From contig CP070815.1 of the NCBI GenBank assembly GCA_020344215.1, positions 2,079,132 through 2,143,131 of the forward strand: a DNA stretch of 64,000 nt, read 5' to 3'. Made by a program: the position numbers and the translations under genes. The first letter of the stretch is position 1, and the number at the start of each line of letters is the position of its first letter. The stretch comes from Gemmatimonadota bacterium (lineage in GTDB: Bacteria > Gemmatimonadota > Gemmatimonadetes > Palauibacterales > KS3-K002). The notes under the pieces were generated by a model. It had not been told where the DNA came from, ran no database searches, and saw only the letters and a program-made list of their open reading frames with translations. This document shows, piece after piece, positions 5,345-56,572 of this stretch.

Positions 5345-7381
5345 CTATTCCGTCTGACCCGCAGAGTCGTGGGTCTCGGGCCAAACTAGCCGAGCCAGGT
5401 GCAGGTAGTCGCCTCCGACGGTCTGGAATCGGAAACTCTCTCGGACATAGGGCGACAGTGATTGGGGACTCTCTTGTCCGTCGCGAGAGTCCCAGACGAT
5501 CCACTCCATGCCGGCACGCTGCAGTCGGAGGATGTCCTCGGCCCCGGGATCGTTTCTCACCATCGACTCGGCGTAGGGATCGCGCCAATCGGTCCAGGGA
5601 GCCGGTACGACCACGATCTTTCGCCTGCCCAGGGGTTGTGCCAGCACGCCACCGAACAGTTGGCCGCTGGAAGTCTGCCAGCGCCAACGTGACACGGTGT
5701 CTGCCTGGAGGAATTCGCTGAACCCCGGGGCTTCGGACAAACCGGGGTACCCCGCGGCCAGACTCGATCGGAACGCCGTCACACCTTGTGCGGCCGGATC
5801 GCGGCCCATCTCCCACTCGAGCGCCACCGTCCGGTTGGACTCCCAGACCGCGACGCCTATGACAGCGACGGCGAAGGCGATGGTGAGAAGGTGCAAGCGC
5901 CGCTGCTGCCAGCGAGAGACGGCATCGTGGAGCACCACAGCCAGGCACGGCAGCCCCAGCGCGTGTAGCCAGAGCGTGCGCAGCGACAGTGACGGCAGAG
6001 CGACAAAGGAGAGCAGCGGCAGGATAAGCACGGTAAGATAGGCGAGCTTGAGCAGCAGCTCTCGCTGGCGCCGCCGCACCGCGAGGAAGCTCAGGTAGAG
6101 TACGGCAGGCACGGCCCCGACGATCCAGATGTAGCCCAGCCCGCCCCAGACGTAAACGAAGTGGATCGGAGCGTCGAGCTGGAGCCACGCTACGAAGACG
6201 CGGGCCCAGCTCGGGTACTGAGCCAGCCACTCCGGCATCGACAGAGCCGCCCAGTAGCTGTGATCGATCCCCGGCGCGAGGACTTTCTCGCCCAGGCTCA
6301 GCTGAATCGGGTAGATCGGGTTACCGGTGACCAGCAGGTTTCTGACGTACCAGTAGCCGCCGACCGCGACCGCGATCGCGCCTGCTAAGGCGAGGGCACG
6401 TGCTTGGCGCGACAGCCCCTGCAACCCGCTTGCCCAGAACACGGCCAGCGCGGTCAGGCATCCGATCGTGATGGCGAAAGGGAGGCCGAAACCCTTCGAC
6501 CCCAACATCAGCCCGACGTTCAGCCCCAGAAGCGTTGCCGCCCACCAGACGTTCTGCCGACCGTGAAATACGAGGATACACGAGGCCGCAACCGCGCCCA
6601 TTACCGTGCTCGCGAACCCGGCATCGATGTAAGCGCTCACGCTGACGCTGACGAATGCCGAGGCTCCGACGATCAATGCTCCAGCAAGCCAGCGCCAGAT
6701 GCCCCGCGCACCCAGATGCCCGGCGATGACCGCCAGACCCGTTATCGCCAGCGGCCAGTACCACAGGTTGCAGGCGTCCAGCAGCCGGCTCGTTCGAAAG
6801 AGGTGGTGGGCGAAGTAACTCGAAAGCTCCACGCCCATCGGGTAGTTCGTATATGGGATGTCCGGTACACCGGCGACGAAGCCCACCCGCCCCTGCACGA
6901 CCCAGTCGTGGATCGCCGGCACGTGATAGGCCAGCCCGTCATAGCCGTACGGGGAACGGAGGAGAGCGAGAACCCAGAGCTGCAGCCAGGTCCAGCCCGC
7001 CCAAAGGAGCGCCCCGGCAGCGAGGACTTGCAGAAACCGCTCGAGCTGAAGGGCCCCGCCTCCCGCCGGGCCGGGCCGTGCGACGGGTGATGACGCCGGC
7101 GGCCGGTGCCGGGCGGCAAAGAGCCACGCCAGGGCGAGGCAGGTTACCAGAACGGCTATCGCCAGGGGCTGGCTCAAGCGAACCCGAACCAGCCCGAGCC
7201 CGATGCAGGAGACCTGGATCAGGGCCAGAAAGCACGAGACCCCGGCGAAGGCGGGGAGGACCCCGCTCAGGTCGCCACCGGGTCCCGGGCCGACCTCCGA
7301 CGCCAGCGCAGCTCGCGAGTCCGCTCCGCGCTCGTCTGACAACCCCCCGTTATCGCCGGGCGCCGCGCTTTCCGTCGGCAT
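5345..7381 (-). CDS. GT-C-like multi-pass membrane glycosyltransferase
   Basis: A 678-residue protein with about ten to twelve hydrophobic segments and a soluble C-terminal domain of roughly 180 residues. The first large loop holds YDGLAYHVPAIHDWV, similar to the acidic loop of GT-C/ArnT/PMT-like enzymes that use polyprenyl-phosphate sugars. The assignment rests on topology and this loop, so the exact substrate is open (sugar transfer to lipid, protein or polymer). A Pro/Gly/Ala-rich stretch of about 40 residues precedes the first membrane segment. It is read against the upstream gene cluster and ends convergently with the gene at 4617. A lipoprotein gene begins upstream on the same strand after a 15-base gap. 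Confidence 0.72.
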   Translation of the reverse strand: MPTESAAPGDNGGLSDERGADSRAALASEVGPGPGGDLSGVLPAFAGVSCFLALIQVSCIGLGLVRVRLSQPLAIAVLVTCLALAWLFAARHRPPASSPVARPGPAGGGALQLERFLQVLAAGALLWAGWTWLQLWVLALLRSPYGYDGLAYHVPAIHDWVVQGRVGFVAGVPDIPYTNYPMGVELSSYFAHHLFRTSRLLDACNLWYWPLAITGLAVIAGHLGARGIWRWLAGALIVGASAFVSVSVSAYIDAGFASTVMGAVAASCILVFHGRQNVWWAATLLGLNVGLMLGSKGFGLPFAITIGCLTALAVFWASGLQGLSRQARALALAGAIAVAVGGYWYVRNLLVTGNPIYPIQLSLGEKVLAPGIDHSYWAALSMPEWLAQYPSWARVFVAWLQLDAPIHFVYVWGGLGYIWIVGAVPAVLYLSFLAVRRRQRELLLKLAYLTVLILPLLSFVALPSLSLRTLWLHALGLPCLAVVLHDAVSRWQQRRLHLLTIAFAVAVIGVAVWESNRTVALEWEMGRDPAAQGVTAFRSSLAAGYPGLSEAPGFSEFLQADTVSRWRWQTSSGQLFGGVLAQPLGRRKIVVVPAPWTDWRDPYAESMVRNDPGAEDILRLQRAGMEWIVWDSRDGQESPQSLSPYVRESFRFQTVGGDYLHLARLVWPETHDSAGQTE

Positions 7382-7396
7382 TCGCGCGCGCTCGAC

Positions 7397-8638
7397 CTAC
7401 GGCGTCCACCAGTAAGGCGTAAAGACTGGCCCCGACATCTCGTCGGGCGGCGGCGACACCTTGGGATAAGCCAGCCACACCGCCTCGCCTTCGGCGGGCC
7501 ACTGCCAGTCTGAAGGTACCGACAGCATCCTGACGTTCCCCTGGTCGATGACGTCGCTGGTGTTTGTCACCAGGAGCCACGGGTCGAAGAACAGACCCTC
7601 GCCGTGGTACGAGGCATACGGGTCGTAGGCGCTGAAGTCGAAGTCACAGGGCGCGTCGAAGTGCATTACGAGCTCGGCTTCGTTGGGCGGTGCGGACGTG
7701 TTGGGGACGACGACGACGTCGATGCCGGTCGCGTCATCGTAGGCACCCGAGTCCACCAGCAACCCGTCGCGGTACAGCTCGTAAGTGCCATCACATTGGA
7801 AGGTCATCTCCTCCAAGTGCATGACGTGGGTGAACCCCGCCAACTTAGCCTGCGGGATGACCGTGAAGTCCATGCGGACCAGGTCCCTGGCGCTCGTAGT
7901 GCCGAAGTACGTGGCCAGGACCCTCACGTCGGCGACCCAATCGTTGTAGTCCCAATCGGCGAGGCCGAACTGCGCCCACTGCCAGTCTTCGAAGGCCACG
8001 GTCGTCGTACCACCCTCGGGCCACTCCTGGCGAATCTCGCCCTGGACGTCATAGATCGTGCAGGTAGCCCAGTTCTTTCCGGGGAACTCGCAACCGGTGC
8101 TCCAGGCACTCTCGCTACGACTCGGATTCGAATGACGGAAACGACGACCGCGCGACGACGCTGGCGCGGCGTGCCAGCTCGACCGAAGGCTGGCGTGAGC
8201 CCCGATGTAGAGCTGGGTGTCCGTTGACCAGCTCAGTGGTATCTGGTAGTCAACGTGGGTGTCGACGCACGGTCGGTGATCTTGCTTGTAGTCGAATCGC
8301 CCCGGACGCGGATTGCCGTTCTTCTGGGGGATCTCCTCTAGGTGATCGGCCACGTGTAGGTGGGTCTCCTCTATGCACCATCCGGCCAGGGTTACGACAT
8401 AGCGCACGTGCAGATAGTCCGCGTCGTTCCAAACATGCAATTCCCCAACGTGGATCGCGCCCTTCGGGTTGCCACCGCCGGCGATCAACTGAGCGACCAT
8501 GGGGTTGGCTGCCGTGTGGAACTGAAGCACGAGCGGGGCCTCGTCGCGAGGTCCCGTCAAGTCGCCCGCCTCATCACAACCGCCCATCGCGAGTCCCGAA
8601 CAGGCAAGCAGACTCGTTATTAGCAGGCGCCTTTTCAT
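7397..8638 (-). CDS. Lipoprotein with LruC-like domain
   Basis: A 413-residue exported protein. The N-terminus MKRRLLITSLLACSGLAMGGC is a lipoprotein signal with Cys21 as the lipidation site (lipobox MGGC, slightly loose). The motif LADWDYNDWVADVRV near residue 235 strongly recalls the DYNDWVxD signature of LruC/DUF4842 domains found in cell-surface proteins. About eight further cysteines may form disulfides. No enzymatic motif is visible. The start ATG 8638 is supported by the perfect signal sequence right after it and by AGGAG just upstream. The next gene downstream is the GT-C-like protein 15 bases away, so they may be cotranscribed. Role: surface-attached, possibly adhesive (inferred). 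Confidence 0.72.
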   Translation of the reverse strand: MKRRLLITSLLACSGLAMGGCDEAGDLTGPRDEAPLVLQFHTAANPMVAQLIAGGGNPKGAIHVGELHVWNDADYLHVRYVVTLAGWCIEETHLHVADHLEEIPQKNGNPRPGRFDYKQDHRPCVDTHVDYQIPLSWSTDTQLYIGAHASLRSSWHAAPASSRGRRFRHSNPSRSESAWSTGCEFPGKNWATCTIYDVQGEIRQEWPEGGTTTVAFEDWQWAQFGLADWDYNDWVADVRVLATYFGTTSARDLVRMDFTVIPQAKLAGFTHVMHLEEMTFQCDGTYELYRDGLLVDSGAYDDATGIDVVVVPNTSAPPNEAELVMHFDAPCDFDFSAYDPYASYHGEGLFFDPWLLVTNTSDVIDQGNVRMLSVPSDWQWPAEGEAVWLAYPKVSPPPDEMSGPVFTPYWWTP

Positions 8639-8705
8639 AGCAGTACTCCTTTCGGATCGCGGGGACGCAGAGCTTGACGTGAGTCCTGCGCCCCTCGGCC
8701 AGTGG

Positions 8706-9545
8706 TCACCACTCCTTGAAGAGTCGAAGCGTTAGCCCCCCGCCGTCGTAGATGGTGGCGTAGTCCAATCGGGCGCTGAAGCCAAGACTCGACGTGAGAT
8801 ACTGAGCGAAGAACACGTTGTATGCAGCCGCGCTGTACTCAACGAGCGCGCGGCCGGGAGTGAGCATGTAGGCTACGTCTCCGTAGTCGAGCCCCGCTCC
8901 CATGTAAGTCTTCCGCCACACCGCGTACGTGACCCCGAGTCCGCCGCTCCACGACGTTGTAGTGCCCGGGTAGCTGAGGTCGTAGCGCCCCCAGCTGCCC
9001 AGTATCCAGTGCCCACGAACGTACCACGTGAATCCCAGCCCCAAGCCGTGGGCATAATTTGCGCCCTTGCCGTTCGTGTGCAGGTAGGACAGCGACAGAA
9101 TCAAGCTCTTGTCGGCGAGCACAGGCTTGCCAGCGGCGATTCCGATCTGGTATTCGGGATGTATGCTCTTGCCGGTTCCGGTGCTGAACCCTCCGCTAAC
9201 GAACACCCCGCTCGACCAGTAGCGTGTGTAGGCTGCGCCGACAGCGACACCGGCGTCGTCAAAGCGGTGGTCGAGGCTGGCGGAGAAGCGCCATTGGTAT
9301 GAGTAGGGTCGCGAAATCGAAAGCGTGACGAACTGGGAGTGTGCGAAGTCGTCGAAATAGCTTGCAAGAGCGAGCCCGCCCTCGACCGAATAGGAAAGCG
9401 GGGACCTGTTTGCCTGCGCAGCCGGCGTCTCTTGGCTGCAGAGCGGTGCCGCACCTGTTGCCGCGAAGCACAAGCAAAGGATGAGTGTGGCGGCGAAACG
9501 GTGCCGCGCACACCGGCTGGAAGAATGGCACCTCATGATGCTCAT
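8706..9545 (-). CDS. YaiO-family outer membrane beta-barrel
   Basis: A 279-residue outer-membrane protein of the YaiO type. A signal peptide (ATLILCLCFAATGAAPLCSQ) is followed by a region of alternating aromatic strands rich in GY, YxF and W, ending with the terminal strand GGGLTLRLFKEW, a typical C-terminal barrel strand. ATG 9545 overlaps the upstream membrane-protein stop by four bases (ATGA), so translation is probably coupled; ATG 9536 is the alternative. The open frame reaches further upstream to 10187, but that part only shadows the membrane gene. YaiO proteins sit beside family-2 glycosyltransferases in other bacteria, which suggests an export port for polysaccharide (inference). Confidence 0.8.
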   Translation of the reverse strand: MSIMRCHSSSRCARHRFAATLILCLCFAATGAAPLCSQETPAAQANRSPLSYSVEGGLALASYFDDFAHSQFVTLSISRPYSYQWRFSASLDHRFDDAGVAVGAAYTRYWSSGVFVSGGFSTGTGKSIHPEYQIGIAAGKPVLADKSLILSLSYLHTNGKGANYAHGLGLGFTWYVRGHWILGSWGRYDLSYPGTTTSWSGGLGVTYAVWRKTYMGAGLDYGDVAYMLTPGRALVEYSAAAYNVFFAQYLTSSLGFSARLDYATIYDGGGLTLRLFKEW

Positions 9546-10423
9546 GCTGGTTCCCTCGCTTCTTGGAATACTCGAGGCTCTGGACCCTTTTCTTCCACAG
9601 ACCACTGGCTTCGCCAACTCACTCCCCAGGCGTAGAACGCGATAAGGACGAGTATGTCCAGCGGGAGGCCGAACACAAAGAAGAGGATGGGGAGGAAGAG
9701 AAGCGTTGAATGATAGAGGATGAGCGCGTGCGCCATGTACTGCAGGGGAATGAACACGCTCAGATGCAGCATTACGACCAAGGTGAGGCCCAGCTTGCGG
9801 CTGAGGGTGAAGTCGAAGATGTAGTATATGAGTCCAAGCAGGACGGGCGTAAGCGATATCAATGCGACTCCTGCGATCAACATCCCGTGCACGTAGCCGC
9901 TGGCGCCATAGGGGAACGAGGTGGGCCAGAGCGCGAAGAAGACCTGCGCACCGGCTTGGAAGAACGCGATTACCCGGACTAGGTAGGCGACCGGTAGAAA
10001 ACGCCGCGGGATGAGGAAAGACCCTGCAAACAAGGCCAGTGTGATTGCCGCGCCAGCGATCCAGGTCCAGATACCCGGCAGGCCGGCGCCCACCGCGAGG
10101 TAGGGGGCGGAGAAGCCCAGTGGGTAATCGATGATCACGACGTACCCGTTTAAGCCAAAGACCGCACGCCAGAAGTCGAGAATCCACGCCCAGGCCACAA
10201 CCACCCAGTCGAGCGCTGCGAACCAGCCCGCTAGCAGACCGAGCACGAGAAAGACGCTGGTCAGGATTTTGGGCGCGGGGTGGGGCTCGACCGCCATGGC
10301 GCGGTGTTGAACGATCAGGCCGCCCGCATAGCCCCGATAGCGAAGCTCCTCGAGCTCTGCCGGCAGCGCCGGATCGCGGGCCGCCGGGTACTGGTATCTC
10401 CGGTCGTGGGTTTGAGTCTTCAT
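9542..10423 (-). CDS. Multi-pass membrane protein of EPS-like operon
   Basis: A 293-residue integral membrane protein with about seven hydrophobic segments, not assigned to a family. After a polar N-terminus (about 50 residues) come segments such as VFLVLGLLAGWFAAL, AAITLALFAGSFLI and LLFLPILFFVFGLPLDIL. The C-terminal tail is charged. Its start ATG 10423 overlaps the beta-helix gene stop by four bases and its stop overlaps the YaiO start by four bases, so the three genes are translationally coupled. It may form part of the polymer-handling complex with the glycosyltransferase; no catalytic residue stands out. Confidence 0.7.
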   Translation of the reverse strand: MKTQTHDRRYQYPAARDPALPAELEELRYRGYAGGLIVQHRAMAVEPHPAPKILTSVFLVLGLLAGWFAALDWVVVAWAWILDFWRAVFGLNGYVVIIDYPLGFSAPYLAVGAGLPGIWTWIAGAAITLALFAGSFLIPRRFLPVAYLVRVIAFFQAGAQVFFALWPTSFPYGASGYVHGMLIAGVALISLTPVLLGLIYYIFDFTLSRKLGLTLVVMLHLSVFIPLQYMAHALILYHSTLLFLPILFFVFGLPLDILVLIAFYAWGVSWRSQWSVEEKGPEPRVFQEAREPA

Positions 10424-25792: not shown

Positions 25793-27233
25793 AGAGGGCC
25801 TAATCCAGGATACCAGCGCCCTACTGAGCGGTGAGGGGCGCAAGGTTCTGGCGGCGCTGTACGCGACCATGCGCTCGCTGCGGCTCTACCCTCTCGAGAA
25901 CCAGGTGGTGCAGCGGGCACTGGCCGAGGTGGAGGCGACGGTGCGCATACCGTTGAACCGGGAAGGGCGAGTGCAACTCCGCCTCGCCGGCGACTTCGTC
26001 TTCTTCAACGACGTGCGGGTCAGACTCGATCTCGGCAACTACGCCAGCTTCGTCTTCGTGCGGAAGTCGTTGGAGGTGCACGGGGTGGGCAGCATCGACA
26101 TCAATCCAGCGGTCGATATCCGCGAGTGGACATCGTTCCTATCCCTGCTGGTTCAGGAGCCGGAGGCGACCCCGGAAGCGACTCTGGAGGCGGTCCAGCA
26201 GCGCATACAGCAGGCGGGTGTCGAGTACATCAGCGTGGGGCCGCCGGCAGCGCTGGTCGAAGCACTGAGCCTGAGCGAAGAGGCCAAGGAAGCGGCGCGG
26301 CGGACGTATGCACGCTCGGTCAGCGTGGTCAAGGATGTGATGACCAGTGTTCGGCTAGGTAAGGCCTGGAGCGGTCGGCGCGTCAAGCGCGTCGTCTTGG
26401 GAATCGTGGACCAGGTGCTCCACGACGAAGCCGCCATGCTCGGCATGACGACGCTCCGCGACTACGACGAGTACACGTTCACCCACTCGGTGAACGTTTG
26501 CATCCTCTCGGTGGCTCTCGGGCAGAAGCTCGGGTTCAGCCGGCTACAGCTCTTCGATCTCGGTCTGGGTGCCCTGTTCCACGATGTGGGCAAGTCGCGG
26601 GTGCCGCTCAGCGTGCTGAACAAGGAGGGCCGGCTGGACAAAGAGGAGTGGAGGGTCATGAGCCAGCACCCGGAGTTCGGGTTGATCCTCCTCTTCGACC
26701 TGCACGGGTTCGAGGAGCCGCCCTACAGGGCGATGCTCACGGCCTACGAGCATCACATGCGCACCGATTTCACCGGCTACCCGAGGGTGGTCCGCGATCG
26801 CTGGATGGGGTTTTTCTCGCGAATCGTTGCTGTGGCCGATGCCTTCGACGCCGCGACCAGCAAACGGAGCTACCAGTACATTCCGTTCCCTCCCGACGAG
26901 GTGCTGCGCGAGATGCGGGACAACCCATCCCGCGGCTTCGACTCCACCGTGGTCAAGGCCTTCGTCAACATGATGGGTATCTATCCCGTCGGAACGCTGT
27001 GCATCCTCGACACGGGCGAGTTGGCTGTGGTTGTGGCGCCGAGCCCGAACCCCGAAGAGCTGCACCGTCCCCTGGTGAGGGTCGTCTCGGATGCCAGCGG
27101 TCGGAAGCTACCGGAGCCGCCCCTGGTCGACCTATCGGATGAAGACCCGGCGACCGGGCGTCCGCTGCGCACCATCGTGAAAACGACCGACCCCGACAAG
27201 TACAGCATCACGGTCTCCGACTACGTCGCCTGA
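25770..27233 (+). CDS. HD-GYP domain protein
   Basis: A 487-residue predicted cyclic-di-nucleotide phosphodiesterase. The HD motif FHDVGKSRVP is near residue 273 with an upstream His in FTHSVNV, and the GYP-like motif EHHMRTDFTGYPR lies near 335. It departs from the usual HHExxDGSGYP: Glu is Met and Gly is Phe, so activity may differ. The N-terminal 170 residues (LYATMRSLRLYPLENQVVQ) form an unknown domain shared in style with the preceding protein. ATG 25770 has GAGGAGG ten bases upstream, inside the HEAT gene. Ending at 27233, it is followed by the pan promoter. Confidence 0.85.
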   Translation: MMMVMRGEEGLIQDTSALLSGEGRKVLAALYATMRSLRLYPLENQVVQRALAEVEATVRIPLNREGRVQLRLAGDFVFFNDVRVRLDLGNYASFVFVRKSLEVHGVGSIDINPAVDIREWTSFLSLLVQEPEATPEATLEAVQQRIQQAGVEYISVGPPAALVEALSLSEEAKEAARRTYARSVSVVKDVMTSVRLGKAWSGRRVKRVVLGIVDQVLHDEAAMLGMTTLRDYDEYTFTHSVNVCILSVALGQKLGFSRLQLFDLGLGALFHDVGKSRVPLSVLNKEGRLDKEEWRVMSQHPEFGLILLFDLHGFEEPPYRAMLTAYEHHMRTDFTGYPRVVRDRWMGFFSRIVAVADAFDAATSKRSYQYIPFPPDEVLREMRDNPSRGFDSTVVKAFVNMMGIYPVGTLCILDTGELAVVVAPSPNPEELHRPLVRVVSDASGRKLPEPPLVDLSDEDPATGRPLRTIVKTTDPDKYSITVSDYVA

Positions 27234-48879: not shown

Positions 48880-50526
48880 CTACTCCTGCTTCTTTTTCTT
48901 CGCGGTCCCCGGCTTCGTGGGAGGCAGGTCGATATCCGGCTCGTGGGGCTCCTGCGGGACCTCCAGCTCCCCGCGCAGGTGAAGCGCGGCGGCAGCCTCG
49001 GCGACCTCGGGGTCGAAGTGGCTGCCGGCGTCCTGCGAGATAGTCTCCACGGTCTTGTCGAACGACCACGCTTCGCGGTAGGGGCGGTCGGAGCTCAGGG
49101 CATCGAGTACGTCGGCGACCGCCAGCAGGCGGCCGAGAAAGGGGATGTTCTTGCCGGCGAGGCCATCGGGATAGCCCGAGCCGTCCCATTTCTCGTGATG
49201 GTGGCGCACACCCGGTAGGATCGCCTTGACGCGGTCGATCTCCGCCTCGCGCAGGATGTCCTCCCCGTGGATGGGGTGCTCCTTGATCTTCTCGAACTCC
49301 TCCGGCTCGAGCTTGCCCGCCTTCCCGAGGACGTCGTCAGGAACCGCGATCTTCCCGACATCGTGAACCACGCCCGAGAACTCGATCAGCTCGAGCGCGT
49401 CATCGCCCTCCCCGAGTTCGGCCGGGAACCTCTCCTTGCCAAGCTCGACCGCGATCTTCTTCGCGAACTCCCCTACGCGCACCGAGTGGGAGTGCGTGTA
49501 GCCGTCCCGTTTGTCGACCGCCTTGGCGATCAGCCGGATAGTGCTTGAGAAGAACTTCTGTCGTTCCGCCTGTCGCTCCTCGATCAGGCGGGCCCGATGG
49601 ATGGCGACACCGGCCTGGTTGCCGATGAGCGCCAGCAGCTCGAGGTCGGCTTCCGTAAAGGCGCCTGTCAGGCTGCGGCTGTCGGCGTAGAGCACACCGA
49701 TCACGCTGTCGTCGGTCGAGACCGGGGCGCACATCACCGAGCGGATCCTCTGCTGGATGATGCTTTGCCCCTCCTTGTAGCGCGCGTCGGCACTGGCGTC
49801 GCGGCTGACTAAGGATGCGGCGTTCTCGAGGACGTCCTGCACCACGGTCCGGCTGACCCTGATCTCCTCCAGGTCCTCCTCGTCGCCTGTGCGCGAGCGG
49901 GCCGCCACGATGCTCAGCTCGTCCGATCCGTCGCTGCCGTCCTCGAGCAGCAAGGCGGCGCGATCGGCATTGATCGCGGCGAAGATCGAGTCGATCACAC
50001 CGTCGAGCAGTTTCCCCAATCCCGGAGCGCTGGCCAGCATCTTGGAGACCTGGTAGGCGGTGGCCAGGTTGCGCTGGGCGCGCTGCAGGTCGTCCAAATC
50101 CTCCGGTTTGGCGGCAGCCTCCAGCGCCTCCATGCCCGGGTACTGAGTGTCCACGACCTTGCGGACTACGGTCGTGGTCCCCTCCTCGCCGTAAGCCAGC
50201 GTGGCTTCCCCGGGCGCCCGGTCGGGACGTGCGGGCCTGGCCCGGCACTCGAGGATAACCGGGCCCACCGCCAGCTGGTCGCCCGGGCTCAGCGAGCCGC
50301 GTTCGACGAGCTGGCCGTTGATGTAGCTGCCGTTCGCCGACTCGAGGTCGACGACCCGGAGTACGGCGCCCAGATTCTCGAGGGTGCAGTGGCGGCGCGA
50401 GACGCCCTGGTCAGACAGGCGGATATCGCACTCGGGGGCGCGGCCGATCGTCTTGCGACCGCCCTGAGAGACGGTGAAGACACGCCCGACCTGCGTGCCT
50501 TCACGGACGACGAGAACGAGATCCAT
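48880..50526 (-). CDS. FHA-GAF-HD-GYP signalling protein
   Basis: About 548 residues. An N-terminal FHA domain (about 1-90, KTIGRAPECDIRLSDQ, VSRRHC, ESANGSYING) binds phosphothreonine. A GAF domain follows (about 145-320). The HD-GYP domain has VVHDVGKIAVPDDVLG near 375 and HHHEKWDGSGYPDGL near 430, a full canonical motif set, so a c-di-GMP phosphodiesterase is predicted. The tail is PPTKPGTAKKKKQE. The start ATG 50526 has GGGAGG ten bases before it and is preferred to GTG 50547, which overlaps the kinase stop. A partner kinase lies just upstream. Confidence 0.9.
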   Translation of the reverse strand: MDLVLVVREGTQVGRVFTVSQGGRKTIGRAPECDIRLSDQGVSRRHCTLENLGAVLRVVDLESANGSYINGQLVERGSLSPGDQLAVGPVILECRARPARPDRAPGEATLAYGEEGTTTVVRKVVDTQYPGMEALEAAAKPEDLDDLQRAQRNLATAYQVSKMLASAPGLGKLLDGVIDSIFAAINADRAALLLEDGSDGSDELSIVAARSRTGDEEDLEEIRVSRTVVQDVLENAASLVSRDASADARYKEGQSIIQQRIRSVMCAPVSTDDSVIGVLYADSRSLTGAFTEADLELLALIGNQAGVAIHRARLIEERQAERQKFFSSTIRLIAKAVDKRDGYTHSHSVRVGEFAKKIAVELGKERFPAELGEGDDALELIEFSGVVHDVGKIAVPDDVLGKAGKLEPEEFEKIKEHPIHGEDILREAEIDRVKAILPGVRHHHEKWDGSGYPDGLAGKNIPFLGRLLAVADVLDALSSDRPYREAWSFDKTVETISQDAGSHFDPEVAEAAAALHLRGELEVPQEPHEPDIDLPPTKPGTAKKKKQE

Positions 50527-50543
50527 TCGTGCCGGTTCCTCCC

Positions 50544-52865
50544 TCACTTCGCGGGCAGTCTCAGATTGGTGAGCCTCTCCTCACCGAACCTCGGGACCGT
50601 GAAGTTGCTGGTGTACACCCCGTAACGCGAGAGGTTCTCCTGCGTCGGGTGCAGCTCCAGCTTGTGCGGGCCAGAGGGTAAAGTGTAACCCGCGAGCGGC
50701 GTGGAGGACACATACTCGCCGTCGATAAATACGTCGGCCGCCGGAGCATCGGGAGCCGTCGTGACGGTGATCCAGCCGAACGGGCCAATCTCCGGAATGA
50801 TATCCCGGTGCTGCCCGGGACCGAGCGTGAAAGCCTCCCTATGAATGGGCATCGAGAAGGCGGAGTAAGGCGGTGCCCCTACGAGCCTCAGGTTGTGCTC
50901 CACCCGCGACGAGACCTCAACGTTGAGCTTCGGTACGTAGCCCAGGTCCTCGTTGTCCAGCAGCAACTTCACGTAGTTGCGCGCCTCGGGCGGCATCACG
51001 TTCACGGTGATGGTACCGGGAGCAGCCGGGACCGAGGTCGTCGGCTGGGCGGCCCGGGTTGAGAAGACGAGGCTGTCCGGCACCAGCCGATTGCCCGCTA
51101 GGTCCCTGACCTCGTTGGTGAGCACTAGCGCGTAGCGAGTCCCCGGCCTGAGCGATGTCGCCGGCTGGATCTGGGCGGTGCGGCCGTCCTCGCTCGTGAA
51201 AACGCCAATCTGCAGTCGAGTCCCCTGGGCGTCACGGAGCAGTATGCTCTCTGAGTTGACAGTACTCGGGTCAACGAGCTCGTTGAAGCTGAGGGTGATC
51301 GACGCGCCTGTCGAGACGTTGCGTGCGTTCTGCGTCGGTGTGCTCTCCGAGAGGTACGGGCGCTCGGTATCAGGCGGTGGGAGGCGCGTATTGAACGGGA
51401 ACGCGGCTCCCGGTTGGCTCGCCCTGGCGTTCTGCCTGATGGGGTCGCCTCGTGCGCTCAGCAGCCCAGGACCGATCTGGATCTCGTAGCGTGTGTTGTA
51501 GGCGAGCCGGACGCTCGGCACGACGGTTATCCGTGTGCCAGCCTCCCTCACCTCGACCTCGGCGGCCACCAAGCGTGCGGAGGGGCCGATGAGCTTCACG
51601 TTCTCACGGCTGGCGGTCGTTGGATCGATGGGGGCGCTGAACCTGATGTCGAACGCGGCATCCTCGACGTCGGCTCCCCCCTCCACGGCAGCGTAGTAGA
51701 AGCTGGTCACGTAGACGCTGCCGGTGCCGATGACCGGCAGATTGGCGAGGAAGGGGGCCTTAGCCTCGCCGAAGGTGCGGAATCCGGCGAGGTCCGTCGC
51801 ATAGGCTGTAACGGTGCCGGCCAGCACCGCCGCCGCGGCGAGCCATATCCAGACGCGGCTCTTCTTCTTCGGCGGCTGCGTCGTCGCCTCATACAGGTCG
51901 GCCGGGCTGCGCTGCGCCTCCCTGGCCTCCGACTCCTGAGCCGCCGCCACCGAGGGTGCTGGCGTCACCGGCGTCGGGGTCTTCTCCTCCTCGGTCTTCT
52001 GGACGGTGAGCACCACTGTACGCTGCGTTGCCCCTTCCAACCTCGCCAGCTCGGAGCGTAGGTGCTCGGCGCTCTGGTAGCGGTCCGCCGGGTTCTTCTG
52101 CAGGCACTTGAGCACGATGCGCTCGAGGTCGGCGTCCAGCTCGGCGTTCTTTTCCCGCGGTAGCCCGGGGAGTTCCTCGATGTGCTTGCGCCCCAGCTCG
52201 AACCAGTCGCGGCCGGTGAACGGCGCTTCACCCGTCGCCATCTCGTACAGGGTGACGCCCAGCGAGTAGATATCGGAGCGATGATCGACCCGATGGCCGC
52301 GCGCCTGCTCTGGCGACATGTACTTCGGCGTGCCCACGTACACCGTCGTGCCGGTCGCCGCTGTGTAGTTCGTCGCCGCTTCGGAGATGCCGAAGTCGGT
52401 GACGACGGCGTTACCATGGCGGTCGAACAGGATGTTGTCGGGCTTGAGGTCCCGGTGCACGATCCCGCCCTCGTGTGTGTGGGCGAACTGCAGAGCGGAA
52501 GCCACGTCCATCCCGACTTTGATGATGGCGCCCTCGTCCATCGGTTTGCCCGCGACCATCAGATCCTTCAAGCCGGTCTCCAAGAGGTCCATGGAGAAGA
52601 AGACGATATCGTCGTCCTTGCCGGCGTAGTGGATGGCGATCACGTTGGGGTGGCGGAACTTCGCCGCCCGGTGGGCTTCGCGCCGGAAGTTCTCCTCGAA
52701 CACCTCGTCGTAGGCGAATGCCGGCTTCAGGATCTTCAGAGCAACGTCGATGTCGAGGTTCGTATCTCGCGCCCTGTAGACGTAAGCGAAGCCACCCTCA
52801 CCGAGGAACTTGTCGATCCGGTAGACCGCTACCCTGCGGCCTAGGAATAAGTCCTTCCTTTTCAG
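50544..52865 (-). CDS. Transmembrane Ser/Thr kinase with Ig-like and PEGA ectodomain
   Basis: A 773-residue eukaryotic-type Ser/Thr kinase. The Gly loop GEGGFAYV is at 22-29, the lysine VALK44, HRDLKPDN around residue 139 and GTPKYMSPEQ around 180: all catalytic parts are kept. A TM helix (about 338-358) is followed by two SbsA/Big_5-like Ig domains (including DTERPYLSESTPTQNARNV) and a PEGA-like domain near the end. The first GTG in frame (52703) would remove the Gly loop and the lysine. Upstream codons open to a TAG at 52887, and CTG 52865 has AAGGGGG five bases before it, so I start there. Confidence 0.87.
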   Translation of the reverse strand: MKRKDLFLGRRVAVYRIDKFLGEGGFAYVYRARDTNLDIDVALKILKPAFAYDEVFEENFRREAHRAAKFRHPNVIAIHYAGKDDDIVFFSMDLLETGLKDLMVAGKPMDEGAIIKVGMDVASALQFAHTHEGGIVHRDLKPDNILFDRHGNAVVTDFGISEAATNYTAATGTTVYVGTPKYMSPEQARGHRVDHRSDIYSLGVTLYEMATGEAPFTGRDWFELGRKHIEELPGLPREKNAELDADLERIVLKCLQKNPADRYQSAEHLRSELARLEGATQRTVVLTVQKTEEEKTPTPVTPAPSVAAAQESEAREAQRSPADLYEATTQPPKKKSRVWIWLAAAAVLAGTVTAYATDLAGFRTFGEAKAPFLANLPVIGTGSVYVTSFYYAAVEGGADVEDAAFDIRFSAPIDPTTASRENVKLIGPSARLVAAEVEVREAGTRITVVPSVRLAYNTRYEIQIGPGLLSARGDPIRQNARASQPGAAFPFNTRLPPPDTERPYLSESTPTQNARNVSTGASITLSFNELVDPSTVNSESILLRDAQGTRLQIGVFTSEDGRTAQIQPATSLRPGTRYALVLTNEVRDLAGNRLVPDSLVFSTRAAQPTTSVPAAPGTITVNVMPPEARNYVKLLLDNEDLGYVPKLNVEVSSRVEHNLRLVGAPPYSAFSMPIHREAFTLGPGQHRDIIPEIGPFGWITVTTAPDAPAADVFIDGEYVSSTPLAGYTLPSGPHKLELHPTQENLSRYGVYTSNFTVPRFGEERLTNLRLPAK

Positions 52866-52886
52866 AGCGGCCCCCTTGCCATGTGT

Positions 52887-55841
52887 CTATGCTCCAGGTC
52901 TCACGTTCCCGAAGAAGCGTTGCGTCTCCGGGTTGTATATCCGTAGCCCGTAAAGTTGTCCGAGCCTCGCTATCTCCCGGTCGAGGTTGAAGTCGGGTCT
53001 TACGGAGAAGATCTCGCGGAACGTGTCCTCGGCGCGCCCCCGGTCGCCGTACGCGAAGTAGGCACAGGCCAGCACCTGGCGCGCCACCACCGTCTGCTCG
53101 CTGATTAGGTTCCCCTGCCGCAGCAGGTCCTCGAAGAAAGCGACGACCTGCCCGTAGTTCGCCTCGTTCCAGTAGCGGAAGCCGGGACCGAGGAGATGAC
53201 GCGTCGAGAGCACGACGACCGAGTCGGCGTACTCGTCCTTGAGATACTGAATGCTCTGAGGTATCGACCCCTGATAGAGGCGCAGGTACTCCAAGCCGTC
53301 CTCCGGATAACCGACGTCGCGAACGCCCCGGTACACCCGGAAGGACTGCTCGATCACCTGAGAATTCTCATAGTACTCGGGACGCGGACCCTGGCCAACG
53401 AGATGCAGAATGTGCTGGCTGGCTGCCCGCGGGTCTTGGAAGTGCATGTACACTTCCGCCATCATGAAGTCGAACTGGATGATCTGCTCCCGAGGGATCC
53501 GGTCCAGGTAGCTTGCCGCCTTCCGCGCCCATTCGACTGCCTCTTGGAATTCACCCTGTGCGTAGGCGCTGCCTACGGCGATGAACAGAATCCTCCCCCT
53601 CACCTCGTCGCTCGCTTGGATGACGCCCGCATCGAGCAGCCGGTCTGTCTCGGCGACGTCGAGCAAGGCCGTCGCGTAGTCCTCATTCTGGTACGCTCGG
53701 TTCGCCGCGAAGTAAGCGAGCGGCAGCGGGTTCGATGCTCGACCGCGCACGCCGGTGATGAATACGGGAGCCACCCGGATATAGCGCGGCGGCCGCTCTG
53801 GGACATCCGCGGACGTGATGCGTAGCGGCGAGGCATCGGCCAAGAACACGGCGCTGTACGGCCCCTCGGGCGCCGCGGCTCCCTGTATCTCGTATCCGCG
53901 GACGAAGCCAGCCGGCCCGGGGCTCCAGCGCATTAGGGCCGCGTCCGTCTCGAAGTCGACGTCGAAGCCGGCGAGCGGCGGGAACTGGACGTCCCAGCGG
54001 AAGACCACCGTCCGCTTGGCCCCCTCATCGGTGATATAGATGTTACCGTCGCGGTCGACGTTGATTCGCGTCGGTCGGTCGAGGCCACGCTCGGCGCCCA
54101 GCTGCGTGAGGACCTCCTCAAAGCCGGCCCTGATGATTGTGACGCGGTGCGTGGCGCTGTGGAGCGCGAAGAAGTTTCCGGCCTGGTCGAAGGTGATCGC
54201 CGCGACTGGACCCGGCAGCAAGCCCCCCTCCAGCGGATCGAAGGTCTGCGCCACACTGTTGAGGTGCGCAACCTGTATCCCGTCCTCGTCCCAGACGTAG
54301 ATCTCGCCGTCGGGGTCGACCGCCACGCCGACCGGCTTGGGGAACGGATAGCTGGCCACGAGGCTTGCCAGATCGGGGCTGAAGATCTTGACCCGGTTGT
54401 TGCCCGTGTCGGCGATCACGATGCGGCCGTCCGCCATGACCGCTACTCCCTGCGGACTTCTGAGCCGGCGGTCGTCCTGGTAATTGTCGCCGTAAGTTCC
54501 TAGCGGCGCCCCGTCCTCCAGGTCGTAGATGGCGAAGCAGTTGCGACGCGCGTCGGCGATCACCACCGTCGAGTCCGTCAGCGCCGCGGCTCCGATCCGG
54601 CCGAGGTCGCCGCTGAACAGCATCGCCTGGACTTCCGGATTGTGTAGGTAAACAGGAACGCTGTCGCCGTACACCGTCTCACGCACCTCCGCCACCGCCG
54701 GTACGAGCGCGAGGGCCCGGTCCCCGCTATCGATGAGGAAGCGCGGCCGACCGTCGGGCCCAGCGGCGACGTCGAGGAGCATCCCCGCCAGACTCGTCCC
54801 GACCTGGGTCACCCTGATCGGGAAATCGAGATCGCGGCGGCGCGTCAGCCCCTCCTCCGTCGTCAGGCGGATCCTCTCCACCTTGCGCAACCTGCTATCG
54901 AGGATCAGCAGCTCGTCGGGCCCGGCGAAGGCGATGTCCACCGCCTCGCGGAACGATCCGCGACCGGTGCCTATGCCGCCGTAAAGCACGTCGTCGGGTC
55001 CGATGAGCTGGTCGCCGTTGACCCGGTACAGGCGGCCGACCTCCTTATCGAGGACGATGACGCTACCGAACTCGTTCACGGCCGTGGCGACCGGTTCCTC
55101 GAAGCGGGCGCCCCGAAAGCTGATCTGGCCGGCGAGGCCACGCGGCGTTGGCCCGACCCAGGGCACATCGGTGAAGGGCGGCAGAGCGTGTATGTGGTTC
55201 GGTGTCCGCTCATCGGCGATGTACATCCAGCCGTCGCTCCCGACGGCCAGCGACACGGGCTGGCTCGACGTCGTCGACAGATCGACGGCGCGGACGAACA
55301 GGCCGTCCTGGCTGAATACCTGCACGCCGCGCCTGCCGGCGTCGAGCACGTAGACGTGCCCGCTCGGTCCCAGGGCCATGTCCACGGGGTTGGCCAGCTG
55401 GCCGCCGCGGTCGCCCTTGCTCGCAATCGTGCGCACGCGTTGGCCGCCCGGACCGAAGACGAATACCTGGTTGCGGTCGGTGTCGAGGACGTACGACTCG
55501 CCGGCCGCGGTGATCCCGATGGCCGCGGGCTTCCGCAGGTCGCCCTGCCCGTAACTCCTGCGGTAAACGCCGGTGGAGTCGAACACGAAGATCAGCCCCC
55601 GCTCGTCGGCGATATGGACGGTACGGTCGGGGCCGAGCACGACGGCGGCCGGCCGGTCTGGCGCTCCGGGCTGCCCCTTACCGGGGAGCTGGAACGAGCC
55701 TTCCGGGACGTAGCCGGCCTTCGGCACGGCCTGCCCCAGGGCGTCGGCTGCTGACAGAATGACCAGCGAGAGGGTGACGGCCCAAGCTGTGAGCCCTCTC
55801 AGGTAACCTCGCACGGTGTACAGACGCTGTCTCAGTTGCAC
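52887..55841 (-). CDS. Secreted NHL-repeat beta-propeller protein
   Basis: A 984-residue exported protein. Signal peptide LTAWAVTLSLVILSAADALGQ. The middle is a series of NHL-like units such as GVAVMADGRIVIADTGNNRV and PVDMALGPSGHVYVLDAGRR, about 8 to 10 of them up to residue about 640. A fibronectin-like stretch (around 660-720) and a helix-rich tail with paired helices of TPR type (about 730-980) follow. NHL propellers bind ligands or other proteins. GTG 55841 overlaps the FHA stop by ten bases. The stop TAG is in the same frame as the kinase, with no stop for 18 codons after it. Confidence 0.82.
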   Translation of the reverse strand: MQLRQRLYTVRGYLRGLTAWAVTLSLVILSAADALGQAVPKAGYVPEGSFQLPGKGQPGAPDRPAAVVLGPDRTVHIADERGLIFVFDSTGVYRRSYGQGDLRKPAAIGITAAGESYVLDTDRNQVFVFGPGGQRVRTIASKGDRGGQLANPVDMALGPSGHVYVLDAGRRGVQVFSQDGLFVRAVDLSTTSSQPVSLAVGSDGWMYIADERTPNHIHALPPFTDVPWVGPTPRGLAGQISFRGARFEEPVATAVNEFGSVIVLDKEVGRLYRVNGDQLIGPDDVLYGGIGTGRGSFREAVDIAFAGPDELLILDSRLRKVERIRLTTEEGLTRRRDLDFPIRVTQVGTSLAGMLLDVAAGPDGRPRFLIDSGDRALALVPAVAEVRETVYGDSVPVYLHNPEVQAMLFSGDLGRIGAAALTDSTVVIADARRNCFAIYDLEDGAPLGTYGDNYQDDRRLRSPQGVAVMADGRIVIADTGNNRVKIFSPDLASLVASYPFPKPVGVAVDPDGEIYVWDEDGIQVAHLNSVAQTFDPLEGGLLPGPVAAITFDQAGNFFALHSATHRVTIIRAGFEEVLTQLGAERGLDRPTRINVDRDGNIYITDEGAKRTVVFRWDVQFPPLAGFDVDFETDAALMRWSPGPAGFVRGYEIQGAAAPEGPYSAVFLADASPLRITSADVPERPPRYIRVAPVFITGVRGRASNPLPLAYFAANRAYQNEDYATALLDVAETDRLLDAGVIQASDEVRGRILFIAVGSAYAQGEFQEAVEWARKAASYLDRIPREQIIQFDFMMAEVYMHFQDPRAASQHILHLVGQGPRPEYYENSQVIEQSFRVYRGVRDVGYPEDGLEYLRLYQGSIPQSIQYLKDEYADSVVVLSTRHLLGPGFRYWNEANYGQVVAFFEDLLRQGNLISEQTVVARQVLACAYFAYGDRGRAEDTFREIFSVRPDFNLDREIARLGQLYGLRIYNPETQRFFGNVRPGA

Positions 55842-56437
55842 GGCGGCGTAGGCTCCAATCTGAGGTTCACGAGTGGGCGATCACCTTCCTGAAAGACGAA
55901 CCTCGAGAACCCGGTAACGACTTCATCTCCGTGCTCGAGTCGCACCGGCGCCGACAGCGGCGCCCCATGGACGATCGTCCCGTTGGTGCTCTCCAGATCC
56001 TCGATCCACCATGACCGCTCGCTCCTGCGGATCCGGCAGTGGTGGCGGGACACGGAACGATCGGGAAACTGGACGTCGTTGTCGGTGGCGCGGCCGATCG
56101 AGAAGTCGGCTCTGTCGACTCGGAAGACCTTGCCACGGTGCACGCCGGCCACCACCCAGAGGCGGCCGAGCACCCCGTCCCCGTGATCGTCGGTAAACCG
56201 GAACACGAGGTCGGCAAGTCCTATGAGATCCCCGTCGCTGAGGGTCCGGCGGTCACCCGGCTGCAGCTCAGAGCCGTTGAGCGTGGTCGGGGCGTCGTTT
56301 GCCGTGACCTCGAGGACGAAGTGGGAATCCTCGCGCTCTATTCGGACATGATGGGCAGCGATCCGAGAGTCGCTGATCCTGAGCGTGTTGGCGTTCGCGC
56401 GGCCGACCGACAACACAGGGACCCGCAAGGGATACAC
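55832..56437 (-). CDS. Tandem FHA-domain protein
   Basis: A 201-residue protein with two FHA domains. The first (about 1-85) has LSVGRANANTLRISDSRIAAHHV and the second (about 105-190) has FSIGRATDNDVQFPDRSVSRHH and ESTNGTIVHG; the Arg, Ser and His of the pThr site are present. GTG 56437 has GGAG nine bases upstream. The frame is open another 20 codons to a CTG at 56497, with AGGAG eight bases before it, giving LGAQSNGAALIG-type leader. A promoter lies upstream. First gene of the signalling operon; it likely reads phosphorylation by the kinase. Confidence 0.85.
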   Translation of the reverse strand: MYPLRVPVLSVGRANANTLRISDSRIAAHHVRIEREDSHFVLEVTANDAPTTLNGSELQPGDRRTLSDGDLIGLADLVFRFTDDHGDGVLGRLWVVAGVHRGKVFRVDRADFSIGRATDNDVQFPDRSVSRHHCRIRRSERSWWIEDLESTNGTIVHGAPLSAPVRLEHGDEVVTGFSRFVFQEGDRPLVNLRLEPTPPCN

Positions 56438-56542
56438 CCGGTTCCGCTCCGCGTAAAACTGCCCGATGAGCGCTGCGCCGTTGGACTGTGCGCCCAGTGG
56501 TCCTACTCCTGTGCGGGGAAGGTCATCGCCGTACGTCCCACA

Positions 56543-56572
56543 ATATTAGGGACTTTGTGTACGGACCGTCAA
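56543..56572 (-). promoter_or_regulatory. Promoter of the FHA-NHL-kinase operon
   Basis: On the minus strand TTGACG (56567-56572), 18 bases and TAATAT (56543-56548) fit a sigma70-type promoter. The expected start near 56536 leaves about 40 bases before CTG 56497 and 100 before GTG 56437. Confidence 0.58.

Follow-up and report, generated by a model that had tools for sequence, protein, structure and literature searches.

A putative signalling operon of Gemmatimonadota with an exported propeller protein, a receptor kinase and an FHA-GAF-HD-GYP protein

Several described systems resemble parts of the locus analysed here. In the GlnH-GlnX-PknG-OdhI relay of actinobacteria (PMC8546545, PMC9769921), an amino-acid-binding lipoprotein serves as the extracytoplasmic sensor, a transmembrane protein relays the signal, and a soluble Ser/Thr kinase, separate from the membrane protein, acts on an FHA target (GarA or OdhI) that controls 2-oxoglutarate dehydrogenase. 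The target recognises its own phospho-tail through its FHA domain, as in the ETTS tail-FHA switch of GarA (PMC12321487). Bdellovibrio DgcB, an FHA-GGDEF protein that makes cyclic-di-GMP, is gated by a phosphothreonine tail, and its kinase had not been identified by the authors in 2019 (PMC6733907). A connection of Ser/Thr kinases with cyclic-di-GMP enzymes has been suspected, often with the kinase unidentified. Mycobacterium PknD (PDB 1rwi) is a Ser/Thr kinase that carries an NHL propeller as its ectodomain. The hybrid two-component sensors BT4663 and BT4673 (PDB 4a2l and 3ott), which carry two propellers and an Ig-like domain in the periplasm, have the sensor fused to a histidine kinase.

The window, the whole stretch of 64,000 nucleotides that was analysed (G000:C1:2079132-2143131), comes from a Gemmatimonadota MAG, a single contig of 4.74 Mb related to Kutchimonas, a genus which sits in Palauibacterales (PMC10469786). 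Four minus-strand genes follow a promoter at 56572-56543 and run down to 48880. In window coordinates the promoter and the genes are:

56543..56572, minus strand: promoter, TTGACG-18-TAATAT
55832..56497, minus strand: double-FHA protein, 221 codons, CTG start
52887..55841, minus strand: exported two-propeller/FN3/TPR protein, 984 aa, signal peptide at about residues 1-37
50544..52865, minus strand: transmembrane Ser/Thr kinase, 773 codons, CTG start
48880..50547, minus strand: FHA-GAF-HD-GYP protein, 555 aa

Like the GlnH relay, this set combines an extracytoplasmic sensor, a transmembrane relay, a Ser/Thr kinase and a candidate FHA target, but the kinase is itself transmembrane and the sensor is a propeller protein, so the locus does not belong to that system. 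As in DgcB, an FHA domain is fused to a cyclic-di-GMP enzyme, but one which presumably destroys the messenger, and a candidate kinase is encoded alongside. Like PknD, the locus pairs Ser/Thr kinase signalling and an extracytoplasmic NHL propeller; here, however, the double propeller is a separate exported protein, unlike those of PknD and BT4663/BT4673, and the kinase carries Ig-like and PEGA-like domains instead. A PknD-type NHL receptor kinase was rejected as an assignment because the NHL repeats are not in the kinase chain. The domain kinds are all known; for their arrangement no name was found, in agreement with the original prediction, and a search of the open-access literature found no paper that describes an FHA-HD-GYP protein together with a kinase.

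Pfam profile matches place the four predicted domain sets in the four genes at 48880-56497, on the strand and at the place originally given: two FHA domains in the first protein (E=4e-34), NHL (E=3e-28) with a weak TPR match in the exported protein, Pkinase (E=4e-49) and two Big_5 domains (E=7e-31) in the receptor, and FHA (3e-17), GAF (2e-15) and the HD-GYP-type HD_5 (1e-33) in the last. The PEGA match of the receptor is sub-threshold (19.5 vs 20.8 bits). The gene junctions are, in order, an overlap of 10 bp, a gap of 21 bp and an overlap of 4 bp. The promoter agrees with the sigma-70 consensus at 9/12 positions, a score at which 0.7 sites are expected by chance in the region. It is credible not from this score but because TTGAC is invariant in seven aligned genomes, followed 16-18 nt on by a TAA(C/T)AT-like box that is degenerate in two of them. 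With its overlapping or nearly abutting genes and this footprint, the locus looks like one real operon encoding a signalling cassette, and the single promoter proposed for it holds. An inverted repeat across the -10 box was considered as an operator and dropped, since it is not kept in G005 and G002.

CTG is a rare start codon in bacteria. Two of the four genes begin with it, the double-FHA gene at 56497 and the kinase gene at 52865, and both starts are well supported because the aligned homologues either keep CTG, as most genomes of the family do, or swap in ATG (G004, kinase) or GTG (G002, double-FHA) at the same position. Reading from ATG, GTG or TTG leaves both genes too short, the kinase then lacking its full N-lobe.

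The sensor and the receptor have the following parts:

54864..55718, minus strand: NHL propeller 1, residues 42-326 (AlphaFold2 model, Pfam)
53988..54818, minus strand: NHL propeller 2, residues 342-618 (AlphaFold2 model, Pfam)
53760..53963, minus strand: FN3-like beta-sandwich, residues 627-694 (AlphaFold2 model)
52908..53717, minus strand: TPR-like helical tail, residues 709-978 (Pfam, AlphaFold2 model)
52041..52826, minus strand: kinase domain, with GEGGFAYV, VALK, HRDLKPDN and DFG intact
51798..51854, minus strand: single transmembrane helix, residues 338-356 (hydropathy; helix in model)
50547..51731, minus strand: ectodomain of two Big_5 Ig-like and two PEGA-like domains

In the AlphaFold2 model of the exported protein, built on a 10-row alignment (mean pLDDT 82, pTM 0.56), two propellers of six blades each are followed by an FN3-like domain and then by a TPR-like tail of 15 helices. 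Foldseek matched a single propeller to the NHL domain of TRIM71 (TM 0.80 on the target), the sole informative match; the whole-length model gave low TM scores only, and the listed 4a2l and 3ott are weak fold matches at that length (TM about 0.2-0.27). The original prediction had the signal bound externally. The signal peptide bears out export, and the location would be periplasmic, as no lipobox was seen in the protein. In the ectodomain model, beta-domains that Foldseek matches to Ig-like folds form a chain whose inter-domain order is uncertain (pLDDT 84, pTM 0.38).

The kinase carries all the Hanks-type motifs (Gly loop, VAxK, HRD, DFG), which are invariant in six homologues, in support of the original prediction. 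Its kinase domain is by far the most constrained part of the receptor, with a mean identity of 89% over six genomes, against 42-57% for the domains of the ectodomain. By kinase-domain sequence it is closest to PknB, also the nearest among solved structures, yet a PASTA-type PknB/Stk1 was rejected: there are no PASTA domains, and NF033483 (NCBIfam) scored 322.4 against a cut-off of 450. The sister species G001 has a second related cluster beside a 100-N gap (L056, G001:C1:610000-626000, 7042-9972), with an ectodomain-less kinase, 63% identical to the operon's kinase domain, and GAF, HD and FHA pieces.

On the cytoplasmic side the relevant parts are:

56174..56476, minus strand: FHA-1 of the double-FHA protein, degenerate phosphothreonine site
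55883..56173, minus strand: FHA-2 of the double-FHA protein, canonical GR...SRHH...STNG site
50146..50187, minus strand: EEGTTTVVRKVVDT, conserved Thr motif of the linker between FHA and GAF, a candidate site of phosphorylation
49213..49563, minus strand: HD tract, residues 329-445, divergent in the window genome only

The roles given here to individual residues are general knowledge of the kinase, FHA and HD-GYP families. Both FHA proteins had been cast as readers of phosphothreonine, and they are plausible cognate partners of the kinase. The binding residues (GR, S, H, NG) are present in FHA-2 and in the FHA domain of the HD-GYP protein. FHA-1 lacks the full set, its phosphate-contacting Ser being Ala in 7/7 family homologues, and is probably no longer a phosphothreonine reader. 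C-terminal to the FHA domain of the HD-GYP protein, the linker motif T-[VIL]-[VL]-R-K is kept in 8/8 homologues and offers a specific candidate site of phosphorylation. It recalls the ETTS tail of GarA and the phospho-tail of DgcB, although in those proteins the tail precedes the FHA domain. The HD-GYP domain has its metal ligands intact, in line with the original prediction: H354, H395, D396, H424, H450, H451, D479 and the GYP residues are invariant in six homologues.

The distribution of the locus was followed in eight genomes of the same GTDB family (G000-G007) and in 295 genomes of the class. The propeller alignment, used as a query, found the locus in six named records, all of them MAGs from Gemmatimonadota or from uncultured bacteria, among them Candidatus Kutchimonas denitrificans; a genome contig scan with a single propeller sequence as query gave no match. 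Gene order, proposed as a check, is strict within the family, with all four genes in order in 7/8 genomes, but this is weak evidence because the flanks, with recQ upstream and an enoyl-CoA hydratase gene downstream, are kept there as well. In G005 the locus match is split by 100-N gaps with its halves far apart in the scaffold, presumably an assembly fault.

In the class genomes, profile searches detected the propeller protein in 11 and, within those 11, the ectodomain in 10; in the eleventh, G160 (L053 7798-9927), the propeller protein is missing its TPR tail and the receptor partner. G414, whose surroundings are unlike the window's, was added by the family search. The propeller gene adjoins the receptor gene in all 10 genomes and in G414. 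The common ectodomain, at about 30% identity, has a kinase as its fusion partner in some genomes and a class III cyclase in others. In two species, G190 and G288, the receptor is a class III adenylate/guanylate cyclase and is followed by a GGDEF-PilZ gene. In G229 the ectodomain has another membrane anchor and no recognised enzyme, and the contig ends there. The propeller and ectodomain trees share their deep order (the family, G414, G229, the cyclase pair), with weak nodes within the family.

The four genes had been treated as a single set, with their independent occurrence in relatives named as a refuting condition, and on this the genomes are divided. The propeller-ectodomain pair is indeed constant, but the rest comes apart: G414 has the kinase and double-FHA genes without HD-GYP, a cyclase replaces the kinase in two genomes, and in G006 the HD-GYP gene has another kinase as its neighbour. 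The pairing of sensor and receptor is well supported, since the two occur together, lie side by side and branch alike in the deep parts of their trees. They make up the constant unit, and kinase, FHA and HD-GYP are one of several outputs. Outputs that swap behind one constant pair amount to a natural domain exchange, a strong argument that its two members, the propeller protein and the receptor ectodomain, act jointly. Whether this makes a modular family seems to us an even call: one whose members would all keep the double-propeller/TPR sensor and the Ig/PEGA receptor but differ inside the cell, some having a Ser/Thr kinase and FHA readers, with or without HD-GYP, and others a class III cyclase together with GGDEF-PilZ. 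If so, kinase, cyclic-nucleotide and cyclic-di-GMP signalling would be joined through one sensor. This output swap, together with a candidate kinase and a putative FHA-HD-GYP target in one operon, sets the locus above an ordinary kinase operon.

Three genomes bear on the connection between kinase and FHA proteins, in counts of only detected genes that rest on drafts 83-93% complete. In G006, a draft of 1.7 Mb, the sensor genes are missing and the FHA-GAF-HD-GYP gene is kept, divergent from the sole detected Ser/Thr kinase gene; its FHA domain is the only one detected there, and that kinase matches the operon kinase at 38% identity in the kinase domain and is no orthologue of it. G414 has a single detected kinase, the one in the operon. 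In G190, the cyclase-type species covered by this search, there was no FHA match despite seven kinase matches. These patterns, from draft genomes of few lineages, fit a kinase-to-FHA connection. G414 also has a class III cyclase-FHA fusion (L103 3055-4146) about 7 kb from the operon, which together with the double-FHA protein accounts for all of its FHA matches.

We lean, by a little, towards a two-part periplasmic sensor whose kinase phosphorylates the linkers of FHA proteins and thereby adjusts cyclic-di-GMP breakdown. The exported propeller protein would detect a ligand or the state of the envelope and act on the Ig/PEGA ectodomain, presumably by physical contact. The receptor kinase would then phosphorylate itself and threonines of its partners; the likeliest of these lie in the FHA-GAF-HD-GYP protein, in its TTxVxRK-like linker. 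The FHA domain may then dock on the phosphorylated linker, in cis or in trans, much as in DgcB and GarA/OdhI, and so rearrange the GAF-HD-GYP part, raising or lowering the breakdown of cyclic-di-GMP. FHA-2 probably docks on the phosphorylated kinase or substrate, as a scaffold. In the cyclase-type relatives the same sensor pair would drive a class III cyclase instead, with the GGDEF-PilZ gene adjoining.

The kinase form need not act through cyclic-di-GMP, because the G414 operon has no HD-GYP gene, and kinase cross-talk is possible because the window genome has 25 kinase matches and several other FHA proteins. The lack of HD-GYP in the G414 operon and the other FHA proteins of the window genome, along with the cyclase-FHA protein near the G414 operon and the closeness of the operon kinase to PknB, speak for a reading that we consider unlikely, though it deserves weight: that the sensor operon is real but the main kinase targets lie elsewhere, among other FHA, envelope or division proteins, with the HD-GYP protein a passenger run mainly by its GAF domain. 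Against it, the HD-GYP and kinase genes overlap and are found together in 7 genomes of the family, and in G006 the HD-GYP gene neighbours the sole detected kinase though the sensor genes are gone.

Cyclic-di-GMP is the favoured substrate of the HD-GYP domain. Among solved structures 4mcw, likewise of the GAF-HD-GYP type, is the closest, and against it the metal ligands are kept save for a tri-metal Glu replaced by Tyr; GGDEF proteins are present in every genome checked, and the cyclase-type version carries its own GGDEF-PilZ. The 3'3'-cGAMP phosphodiesterase 5z7c is also among the closest solved relatives and sequence does not settle the substrate, but it seems quite improbable that 3',3'-cGAMP or some other cyclic dinucleotide is what the protein cleaves, or that it serves for binding or scaffolding, so that the output is not cyclic-di-GMP. 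That the genes are coincidental neighbours held together by inherited synteny alone, as the conserved flanks might suggest, is very improbable given the gene overlaps and the one conserved promoter, and is largely refuted for the propeller and receptor, whose pairing recurs in three other genera in different surroundings.

One part of the FHA-GAF-HD-GYP protein is unusual in the window genome. The HD tract at 49213-49563 is 44-54% identical to its relatives, against 76-89% just downstream. A donor sought among the HD-GYP loci of G000 and G001 gave none closer than the family itself, and the tract looks like the product of recombination with an unseen HD-GYP gene or of local rapid change. The profile search also found a further HD-GYP-type match outside the operon, at about 26445-26969 of the window.
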